Assembly (NCBI GenBank): GCA_030533005.1
Contig: JAUNJX010000001.1
Coordinates: forward strand, 60,557-104,555
Length of the DNA: 43,999 nucleotides
Direction: 5' to 3'
Origin: Clostridia bacterium
Lineage (GTDB): Bacteria; Bacillota; Clostridia; Christensenellales; CAG-138
Made by a program: the position numbers and the translations under genes. The notes under the pieces are model-generated. The model made no database searches. It was given only the letters and a program-made list of their open reading frames with translations, and was not told the DNA's origin. Positions 19,385 through 24,310 of the stretch are shown in pieces. Numbering within the stretch: position 1 is the stretch's first letter; each line of letters starts with the position of its first letter.

Positions 19385-20302
19385 TTATCCAATACTTTCA
19401 ATATCATAGGGCGTGGCCTGATACACGAAATAGTTGAGCCAGTTATAGAACAACAGGTGTGCGCTGCTGCGCCACGTTACCATGGGAGATTGCGTGTCAT
19501 CGTCGTTGGGGAAATAGTTTTCGGGCACCTTGATGGGTTTGCCCGCTTTTTTGTCTCGCCAATACTCCAAAGCAAGCGTGTCGGCGTCATACTCCACATG
19601 ACCGGTCAAAAAGAACTGCCTGCCCTGATCCGTTTTGATGGCGTACACGCCCGCCTGCGGCGAGGAGGCGATGATCTGCAGGGCGGGAACCGCCTCGATA
19701 TCCTCGCGCCGTACGGTGGTATGCCGGGAGTGCGGCACCATAAACACGTTATCAAAACCACGCAGCAGGATGGAGCGCTGATACTCCGCTACATGCGGGA
19801 AAACGCCGAACAGTTTCTCTGCAAGCGGATATTTGGGGACGCCGTAGTGGTAGTACAGCGCCGCCTGTGCACCCCAACAGATGTGCAGCGTGGAATACAC
19901 ATGCTGCTTGCTCCATTCCATGATCTCGCACAGCTCATCCCAATATTCCACCTCCTCAAAGGGGAGATGCTCGATGGGCGCGCCCGTGATGATGAGCCCG
20001 TCAAAATTACGGTGCTTCACCTGATCGAAAGTCTTATAAAAGGAGAGCAAATGCTCCTTGGAAACGTTTTTGGCTTCGTGGCTGCGCGTGTAAATAAGCT
20101 CCAGCTCCACCTGCAGCGGCGTATTGCTCAGAAGCCGCGCAAGCTGCGTTTCCGTGGCGATTTTGGTGGGCATGAGGTTTAAAAGCAGCACCTGCAGCGG
20201 GCGTATGTCCTGCGTGGTGGCGCGGGTATGCTGCATGACGAAGATGTTTTCCGCATGCAGGGTATCGATGGCGGGCAGCTTGTCGGGCACTTTGATAGGC
20301 AT
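19385..20302 (-). CDS. metA: Homoserine O-acetyltransferase, MetA (HTS) family
   Basis: 305 residues. It activates homoserine for methionine synthesis by acylation. The catalytic residues of the family fall at their usual numbers: Lys47, nucleophile Cys142 (ICWG), His235 and Glu237 (GHVEYD). Residue 111 is Glu (TGAPIE), which in studied MetA enzymes selects acetyl-CoA, whereas Gly111 selects succinyl-CoA. O-acetylhomoserine is therefore the predicted product, matching the O-acetylhomoserine sulfhydrylase encoded immediately upstream. The frame is open to 20401 inside metY, but the ATG at 20302, 4 nt after the metY stop, gives the normal N-terminus ([11 protein letters not shown]). metY-metA is thus a tightly coupled two-gene operon ending in the terminator shared with asnA. 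Confidence 0.95.
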
Positions 20303-21627: not shown

Positions 21628-21663
21628 AAAAAGGGCAGCCCAGCGATATGCTTAAGACTGCCC
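21628..21663 (-). terminator. Leader terminator before metY (attenuator)
   Basis: On the - strand, GGGCAGTC (21663-21656) pairs with GGCTGCCC (21640-21633) and is followed at once by TTTTT (21632-21628), 38 nt before the metY start. An intrinsic terminator between a promoter and its gene is a hallmark of attenuation. The 5' half can instead pair perfectly over 7 bp with GACTGCC (21726-21720) inside the leader ORF, forming an antiterminator. Confidence 0.8.
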
Positions 21664-21686
21664 ATTACTCACATTCGACCCGCGCG

Positions 21687-21776
21687 CTAACGAAGCGGCG
21701 GCGCCTCTATGGAAGAAAAGGCAGTCCCTCGCATCATCATGCTGCACATCATCATATACATGCCGTACTTACGCAT
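21687..21776 (-). CDS. Methionine-rich leader peptide of the metY-metA operon
   Basis: A 29-codon ORF beginning MRKYGMYMMMCSMMMRG, with 8 Met in its first 15 residues, two of the runs being Met-Met-Met. A good Shine-Dalgarno (AAGGAAGGGAG, 21796-21786) lies 9 nt before the ATG. The promoter 34 nt further upstream, the terminator hairpin after the stop codon and a competing antiterminator overlapping codons 17-19 give the layout of trp, his or leu leader peptides, but with methionine codons. I infer that scarce Met-tRNA stalls ribosomes at codons 6-10, frees 21720-21726 to pair with 21656-21663 and lets transcription into metY. The peptide itself probably has no other function. Confidence 0.82.
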   Translation of the reverse strand: MRKYGMYMMMCSMMMRGTAFSSIEAPPLR

Positions 21777-21809
21777 CAATGTGGACTCCCTTCCTTCGTA
21801 TTGCCAGTC

Positions 21810-21838
21810 ATTGTACATGAATACTCCGTGTTTGTCAA
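21810..21838 (-). promoter_or_regulatory. Sigma-A promoter of the metY leader
   Basis: On the - strand, a perfect TTGACA (21838-21833) and TACAAT (21815-21810) are 17 bp apart. Transcription should begin near 21803, seven nt before the leader peptide's Shine-Dalgarno. The leader RNA to the metY start is about 215 nt. I see no SAM riboswitch or T-box fold in it. Confidence 0.88.
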
Positions 21839-21920: not shown

Positions 21921-22640
21921 ATGTACATCGAGCTTTTCCTGTTGGATAACCTGCTGATGGATATGCTCATTCTGCGGATGGCCTGTGCGCTTTGCGCCCG
22001 GCCGTGCGTCCTGTGGCGCGCGGCACTTTTTTCCTCGCTCGGTGCGCTGTACGCGTGGGTGGCGCTCCTTTTCCCCTTGATGCAGCATTGGCTGGGCAAA
22101 TGCCTGTGCGCGGGGCTGCTTGCGCTGGGGCTGCCAAACGGGAAAAACATAAGGTTGTACGCCCAAGCCTTGCTGTGTGTTGTGCTGTCAGCATTTTTGA
22201 CCGGCGGCATGCTCTTTGCCCTCGTCTATGCATTCTGCGGGAGCGTTGATGTGCTGCCGCTGCGCTGGGCGCTTGCGGGCGCGTGCGGGGCGGCATATTT
22301 GCCGCGATTGCTGCATAAGCGCGCGTGCGTGCCGCCTCAACGACTGTGCGTGGCCTATGGCGGGCAAGTGTATATCTTTGAGGCGCAGCTGGATACCGGC
22401 AACATGCTTTTTGAGCCGGTCAGCGGCTTGCCTGCGATCGTGGCGTGGGCGCCTGCGCTTGCACCGTATGCGCATATCCCTGTCCCGACCGCTACCGTGC
22501 AGGGAAAGGGTGTTTTATATGCCCTGAAGCCCGATGCGATCACGCTGGACGGCGCGCCGGTAAGCGCGATTCTTGCCTTGTCCACGCAGCCGCTTGCGTG
22601 TGCCATGATCCCGGCCGCAGCGCAGCCATTGATAATGTAA
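21921..22640 (+). CDS. spoIIGA: Sporulation sigma-E factor processing peptidase SpoIIGA
   Basis: 239 residues, shorter than the 309 of B. subtilis. Five hydrophobic segments fill the first 135 residues or so (N-terminus MYIELFLLDNLLMDMLILR is typical). The C-terminal part is a retroviral-type aspartic protease domain with the catalytic LDTGN motif (Asp158). SpoIIGA sits in the sporulation septum and cleaves the pro-sequence of sigma-E when signalled from the forespore by SpoIIR. sigE, its substrate, starts 12 nt downstream. No clear sigma-A promoter is visible in the short divergent gap to the metY promoter; a Spo0A-box-like TTTGTCAAC lies at 21831-21839. Confidence 0.93.
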   Translation: MYIELFLLDNLLMDMLILRMACALCARPCVLWRAALFSSLGALYAWVALLFPLMQHWLGKCLCAGLLALGLPNGKNIRLYAQALLCVVLSAFLTGGMLFALVYAFCGSVDVLPLRWALAGACGAAYLPRLLHKRACVPPQRLCVAYGGQVYIFEAQLDTGNMLFEPVSGLPAIVAWAPALAPYAHIPVPTATVQGKGVLYALKPDAITLDGAPVSAILALSTQPLACAMIPAAAQPLIM

Positions 22641-22652
22641 GGAGAGAAAGGT

Positions 22653-23360
22653 ATGCGGATGCTTTTATATCGGATATTGGAAAGGCTCTACGACGCATTG
22701 GCGACATGCGGCGAAATGGGATATATCAACACCGGGGACGCGCTGCCGCCGCCGCTGTCCAAGGCGGAAGAAGCGCAGAGTATGCAACGCCTTTTGGCGG
22801 GGGACGAGAGCGTGAAGGAGACGCTGATCGAGCGCAATTTGCGTTTGGTCGTCTATATCGCGCGCAAATTTGAAAATACGGGTATCCCCATAGAGGATCT
22901 GATCTCCATTGGCGCTATCGGGCTGATCAAAGCCGTCAATACCTTCGACCCGTCTAAAAAGATCAAGCTTGCTACCTATGCCTCCCGCTGCATTGAAAAT
23001 GAGATATTGATGTATTTGCGCCGGAATTCACGGCTGAGAATGGAGGTGTCGCTGGATGAGCCGCTCAATGTGGATTGGGACGGCAACGAGCTGCTGCTTT
23101 CGGACATACTGGGCACAGAGGAGGATGTAGTATGCCGCGGCATAGAGGAGGAGGTAGACAAAGAGCTATTGGGTATCGCCATGGAAAAGCTGAACGAGCG
23201 GGAAAGGCTCATCATGCGCTTGCGCTTTGGCCTTGGCGAGGGGATCGAATATACGCAAAAGCAGGTGGCGGATATGATGGGTATCTCTCAAAGCTACATT
23301 TCCCGGCTGGAGAAGCATATCATCAAGGTGCTGCGGGAGGAAATGGCAGCGATGCAATGA
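22653..23360 (+). CDS. sigE: RNA polymerase sporulation-specific sigma factor SigE (pro-form)
   Basis: 235 residues. The early mother-cell sigma factor. An N-terminal pro-sequence of about 28 residues ([19 protein letters not shown]...), amphipathic as expected for membrane association, precedes the conserved [11 protein letters not shown] junction cut by SpoIIGA. Sigma region 2 includes [24 protein letters not shown] and [23 protein letters not shown] with one break in register from other sigmas; region 4 ends in the helix-turn-helix [29 protein letters not shown] lies before the ATG. In most spore formers sigG follows directly; here it does not. Confidence 0.97.
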
Positions 23361-24079: not shown

Positions 24080-24310
24080 GGTTAGTCATATGCTTTGGGT
24101 CTGTGGTTGCAAGTCGATGCCAGTCGCAGGCGAAGCGATCCACGTAAGCCGGCAAAATGTCGGTGATCACGGTGCGGCTTAGAAGTAAGTCCGACCGCCG
24201 CGCAAGCGGCGAGAGAATGGGTAGTGGGAGACGGAAACGTCCAGTAGCGAGAGTTCCGGTCGGCGGGTGTGGGGTCAAAGACCAGGTCAGCCAAGGCTGT
24301 GATGAGCTAA
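24080..24310 (+). ncRNA. Structured non-coding RNA, unassigned (raiA-motif-like candidate)
   Basis: A 230-nt stretch with no supported ORF directly after a strong promoter, rich in stable stems: AAGCCG (24146-24151) with CGGCTT (24175-24180); CCGACC (24191-24196) with GGTCGG (24258-24263), enclosing GCCGC-GCAA-GCGGC (24197-24210) and GACG-GAAA-CGTC (24230-24241), both capped by GNRA tetraloops; GGTC-AAA-GACC (24273-24283); and CAGC-CAAG-GCTG (24288-24299). It precedes a zinc-ribbon gene. Size, purine-rich loops and lineage recall the large conserved Bacillota RNA called the raiA motif, but I cannot confirm a match. A long regulatory 5' UTR is the alternative. Confidence 0.68.

Follow-up and report, generated by a model that had tools for sequence, protein, structure and literature searches.

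The window analyzed here, a stretch of 43,999 nucleotides from a Clostridia bacterium, carries on its minus strand two genes, metY and metA, preceded by a leader at 21838-21628. A first-pass annotation had taken the genes downstream of this leader for methionine biosynthesis genes, and both were confirmed by curated models. The true start of metA lies near 20302; the NF047918 profile begins at residue 34 of the long open reading frame (ORF). The elements of the leader and their order, read directly from the sequence and from folding, are listed below together with the genes.

21838-21810, minus strand: promoter, sigma-70-type, TTGACA-17 bp-TACAAT, with 11/12 consensus matches
21797-21783, minus strand: segment 1, the Shine-Dalgarno (SD) region GAAGGAAGGGAGTCC, partner of segment 2 (helix of the minimum-energy fold, duplex -19.6 kcal/mol)
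21792-21786, minus strand: SD sequence AAGGGAG of the leader ORF (from the sequence)
21776-21687, minus strand: leader peptide ORF, 29 codons, MRKYGMYMMMCSMMMRGTAFSSIEAPPLR followed by the stop (from the sequence; 0/5000 in the shuffle null)
21761-21747, minus strand: control Met codons 6, 8, 9, and 10; a ribosome here frees segment 2 (antiterminator probability 0.98 to 1.00)
21740-21732, minus strand: second Met run, codons 13 to 15; a ribosome at this run extends to or overlaps segment 2 (folding)
21727-21712, minus strand: segment 2, with the core of the antiterminator 5' arm at 21726-21720 (2:3 duplex, -16.6 kcal/mol)
21663-21656, minus strand: segment 3, GGGCAGTC, antiterminator 3' arm and terminator 5' arm (folding)
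21663-21628, minus strand: intrinsic terminator (3:4) with U tract, tail TTTTTATA (dG -17.8)
21596-20307, minus strand: metY, O-acetylhomoserine sulfhydrylase (TIGR01326, 585 bits, cut-off 495)
20302-19385, minus strand: metA, homoserine O-acetyltransferase (NF047918 MetA_acetyl, 493.5 bits, cut-off 460.5)

The promoter, the SD, the 29-codon ORF, and the terminator were all found in the places and order given by the first-pass annotation, as were the eight Met codons among the first 15 of the ORF (codons 1, 6, 8, 9, 10, 13, 14, and 15). The terminator stem (21663-21633) and its U tract (21632-21628) lie 23 nt past the leader stop, and the closing stem encloses a 19-nt interior that itself folds. 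This terminator was not listed by a mechanical terminator scan of the window and was found by a folding-based search.

As for the surroundings, the spoIIGA-sigE sporulation pair (21921-23360, plus strand; the SpoIIGA match is partial) is divergent from the metY-metA promoter. A structured RNA, raiA (RF03072, 184.6 bits), lies at 24090-24299 on the plus strand and was the only match of an Rfam search of the whole window at gathering thresholds. The window MetY shows similarity of up to 72% to proteins of other clostridial MAGs and of only 57 to 62% to same-family MetY, a pattern hinting at transfer or paralogy.

Folding of the leader gave pairings that exclude one another, with the 1:2 helix and the terminator together forming the minimum-energy fold. 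The 1:2 pairing had been proposed as a 5-bp helix; it does exist, but it is three times longer (ca. 15 bp, 21797-21783 with 21727-21712, duplex of -19.6 kcal/mol) and includes the SD, so that the leader buries its own SD. The antiterminator core is the 7-bp perfect pairing predicted earlier, 21726-21720 with 21662-21656. Given that the energies of 2:3 and 3:4 are -16.6 and -17.8 kcal/mol, the competition between them is balanced. In the window, the antiterminator was better than in 150/150 shuffles (P = 0.007, the lowest value that the test can give).

In order to follow the effect of ribosome position, a ribosome was set on each leader codon in turn, and the RNA lying downstream of it was folded. 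With the A-site at Met codon 6, 8, 9, or 10, the antiterminator probability was 0.98 to 1.00, which bears out the proposal that a ribosome at Met codons 6 to 10 leaves segment 2 free. With the ribosome at codons 13 to 30, the terminator probability in the downstream RNA alone was 0.97 to 1.00. When the upstream RNA was left free to refold, it was 0.03, 0.76, and 0.99 at codons 13, 14, and 15, respectively, and at equilibrium it was 0.47 at the stop codon and 0.27 without a ribosome. The proposal that a ribosome at the stop codon favors the terminator held for the downstream RNA alone, and with refolding the two outcomes were nearly even. Segment 2 is not covered from that position: it is masked with the ribosome at around codons 14 to 22, and its core ends ca. 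30 nt upstream of the stop codon. Since the equilibrium is undecided both at the stop codon and without a ribosome, what happens in these states must hinge on the order of events, and we infer that 1:2 would form ahead of segment 3 synthesis, as in known attenuators.

Together, these data make it very probable that the leader is a ribosome-mediated transcription attenuator reading the methionyl-tRNA supply; the first-pass observation is confirmed, and its interpretation as an attenuator is supported. We infer from the sequence elements that transcription would begin at the promoter and that a ribosome would load on the leader ORF. When charged elongator Met-tRNA is short, this ribosome would stall on Met codons 6 to 10 and break the 1:2 helix, so that segment 2 becomes available to segment 3; with 2:3 formed, the terminator would not form, and metY-metA would be transcribed. 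When Met-tRNA is plentiful, the ribosome would pass over segment 2 and finish the leader, segment 2 being first masked by the ribosome and afterwards bound again by segment 1; 3:4 would then form, and transcription would stop. Without translation, the 15-bp 1:2 helix would close the SD and, if formed first, would also favor termination. The response of the window leader to methionine is predicted from this scheme.

Next of kin of this leader are recognized by layout. A DNA similarity search with the leader in 61 genomes returned the window itself as the sole match; thus, what is conserved is the design, not the nucleotide sequence. The same-genus genome (G001) had no metY at an E value of 1e-120. 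An upstream scan of same-family metY homologues found three leaders of unrelated sequence and equal design (L004, L014, and L019), and further leaders came from following metA and from a strict Met-run pattern.

L004: leader MMNMFAMMMRNTAFDNARRV followed by the stop, before metY
L014: leader MNARRPNMMSMIMRSAASGSDKGC followed by the stop, before metY
L019: leader MKRICQNAMMMFGAMSMMMCMPVRFPVRRRLFE followed by the stop, before a metY paralogue
L134/L265: leader before metA
L275: leader MINKIMTNMQIMRMAMPVVILSLR followed by the stop, before a metY-metA operon of another family (found by following metA)
L307: leader before a metY-like gene and metA (strict Met-run pattern)
L308: leader before metQ (strict Met-run pattern)
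L342 and L344: leaders before metN and metQ, respectively, in other classes of the phylum

The strict pattern (SD followed by MMMRM) matched in 11/347 genomes, in 8 of them before metN, metQ, or metY; in a ninth (G039), the match falls at a contig end, and the downstream gene is unreadable. A broad pattern (SD, ATG, and ATGATGATG) gave matches in 79/103 genomes, most of which were discarded for lying in the wrong frame or within other sequence. The matches retained had passed a frame check and preceded a methionine gene; they comprised metNIQ leaders in seven genomes and a metA leader in one genome. Tracing metN across the family and order yielded ca. 30 more. Altogether, the catalogue comprises 48 leaders with an SD and a terminator (that of the window and 47 others) in 9 families of one order, plus two beyond it in other classes. 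They precede metN or metQ, encoding the Met ABC transporter (ca. 40 loci), metA, metY, or metY-metA, that is, methionine genes wherever the gene is readable; MetN (NIL domain), MetQ (NlpA lipoprotein), MetA, and MetY were confirmed on examples by NCBIfam/Pfam profiles.

Across the 48 leaders, the sequence and the terminator vary, and the SD, the Met-codon cluster, and the terminator position are kept. Met accounts for 21% of the codons that follow the start, with half of the leader Met codons at codons 9 to 14 (cluster median, codon 11), and in 47/48 leaders the terminator begins 15 to 51 nt past the leader stop, most commonly 20 to 30 nt. Given that leaders of different genera resemble one another in nothing but Met content and layout, the design has been maintained through sequence drift, and the attenuator reading survived this comparison with relatives, which keep both the SD and the Met cluster in all 9 families. 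The synonymous rate exceeded the nonsynonymous rate in 8/10 overlapping leader-ORF pairs, a modest effect based on few sites and inconsistent between pairs. At some loci, among them four of five in genus g21, equilibrium favors the terminator regardless of the ribosome; there, either the antiterminator would need to work through kinetics or its pairing escaped the search. Most same-family metY genes have no such leader, and a Met leader with SD and terminator is absent from all 80 named metY loci that belong to other groups; therefore, the leader appears to have been gained and lost.

That a Met-rich ORF should stand by chance ahead of an ordinary terminator-bearing 5' region is hardly credible. 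The lack of metY leaders in several close relatives would fit such an accident, but none of 5,000 dinucleotide shuffles of the window's leader region contained a short ORF that follows an SD and has 7 or more Met in 15 codons, and shuffled leader regions gave 2 matches in 2,400. As background, 2.49 million strand-bases contained 36 other short ORFs that follow an SD and have 4 or more Met in 15 codons, a rate of ca. 0.009 per 600-base upstream region. At this rate, inspection of ca. 70 metN loci of the order should have turned up ca. 0.6 leaders; ca. 32 of these loci have one. Chance is likewise contradicted by the recurrence, in 9 families, before metN, metQ, metA, and metY. All 46 catalogued leaders tested have a terminator no more than 110 nt away, versus 7/39 other Met-rich ORFs with an SD, and 3 of those 7 (L178, L342, and L344) are themselves metQ or metN leaders. 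At 25/48 loci, there is a Met codon at which a ribosome suppresses the terminator more strongly than it does in 95% of the shuffled sequences; a second and less selective statistic, any upstream pairing of the nascent 5' arm, beat shuffles at only 6/48 and was given no weight. Since the loci are related by descent, these figures measure enrichment rather than independent events, and combined P values would overstate it.

Two other readings accept the leader as regulatory and place the sensor elsewhere. Many Bacillota control Met genes by SAM-I riboswitches, which were found in 72/103 genomes of the family, so that an undescribed riboswitch or protein-binding leader might sense methionine or SAM directly, the Met-rich ORF being incidental. 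However, an Rfam search of the window leader, at gathering thresholds and at an E value of 5, found neither a SAM riboswitch nor a T-box and gave a chance-level match only, 20 related leader loci gave no Rfam match, and no common RNA fold runs across genera, which share only Met codons, SD, and terminator. Moreover, the SAM riboswitches of these genomes adjoin metK: all 15 riboswitch loci checked have the MetK signature motif (GAGDQG) close by, also in genomes with a Met leader on metNIQ or metA (G008, G021, and G030). We therefore consider direct sensing quite improbable. Slightly less so, and still unlikely, is action at the level of translation or arrest of the nascent peptide by a small molecule in place of Met-tRNA shortage, in the manner of TnaC, whose peptide stalls the ribosome in response to tryptophan. 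The leader peptides are also rich in Cys (8.2%), and motifs such as MMMRM or a C-terminal CCAA recur within a family, both of which would fit this reading. Arrest peptides, however, need conserved residues, and between genera nothing of the peptide sequence is conserved save for the Met content; furthermore, intrinsic terminators follow nearly every leader, which points to transcription-level control.

Attenuation by Met codons thus remains the preferred reading, and it recalls well-known systems. Like the trp, his, leu, thr, and ilv attenuators of E. coli, the window leader has a promoter, an SD, a short ORF bearing a series of control codons, 1:2, 2:3, and 3:4 pairings, and an intrinsic terminator before a biosynthetic operon; it departs from them in the control codon (AUG), in belonging to the Bacillota, and in that transporter as well as synthesis genes are targets. 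To our knowledge, none of the classical leader-peptide attenuators reads methionine, which we see as a conspicuous gap among the amino acids read in this way. Bacillota methionine genes are known to use SAM riboswitches, T-boxes, or repressors. Met T-boxes and SAM-I riboswitches act on the same target genes with the same logic of premature termination, although no matching RNA is present in the window leader.

Ribosome-read leaders have been described in Bacillota for other amino acids, namely, histidine (hisZ/hisS* of bacilli, where the hisS family attenuator occupies a site at which relatives use a T-box) (PMC2965389) and the branched-chain amino acids (the leucine-rich ilv leader of Staphylococcus aureus) (PMC5794164), whereas the present leaders would read methionine and span at least nine families of one order. 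A comparative study of Actinobacteria found no attenuator for methionine (PMC1262725). In Streptomyces lividans, a putative metL leader before metNIQ was proposed from one genome (PMC8079986); it resembles the present leaders in that Met (and Cys) codons occur in a short ORF ahead of metNIQ, but it is leaderless, has 2 Met beyond the start, shows no evident intrinsic terminator, and belongs to the Actinobacteria (PMC8079986). The first-pass annotation knew of no Met-codon attenuator in Bacillota, and we likewise found none in the open-licence literature, an earlier description elsewhere being possible; such a device is apparently undescribed for methionine in this phylum. It would be a new amino acid specificity, with a wide and previously unlisted regulon, for classical attenuation.

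T-box leaders occur at metN loci of other lineages of the phylum (L328, L330, and L331), in two of them (L330 and L331) directly before the metN match. The genome of the window (85% complete) has five T-box matches, on other contigs, and no SAM-I riboswitch was detected in it. A likely scenario is one of sensors exchanged at the same genes, with a T-box elsewhere, a leader peptide here, and the SAM riboswitch kept for metK. We advance more tentatively, as a conjecture with somewhat less than even chances, that throughout the lineage Met T-boxes and SAM riboswitches on uptake and synthesis genes have given way to leader peptides that read Met codons and perhaps also Cys codons, SAM sensing being left to metK; if so, methionine for translation and SAM would be sensed separately. 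A recurring Met-codon attenuator would mean that unrelated sensors are exchanged on the same metN, metY, and metA genes and that sensing of Met-tRNA and of SAM is separated within one cell. Its sequence signature permits methionine control to be predicted in uncultured bacteria, and it raises the question of how internal initiation is avoided at clustered AUG codons.

Some minor features of the leaders deserve mention. The Cys codons of the 48 leaders are mostly TGC and often adjoin Met (for instance, L235, L260, and L309), and in one family CC is kept directly ahead of the leader stop; this richness perhaps reflects dual Met/Cys sensing or a pairing constraint. At L208 (plus strand, ca. 2794-2880, G136), a Met-rich leader ORF with a terminator (MRFNVHSMRMFLMCAEMSDALFGLHRNA followed by the stop) lies on the strand opposite metN, and its target possibly falls outside the known methionine genes. 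Finally, at L014, a degenerate tandem repeat of GTGTTGAGAGTGGAGAGTGGAGTG-like units separates the leader terminator from metY.
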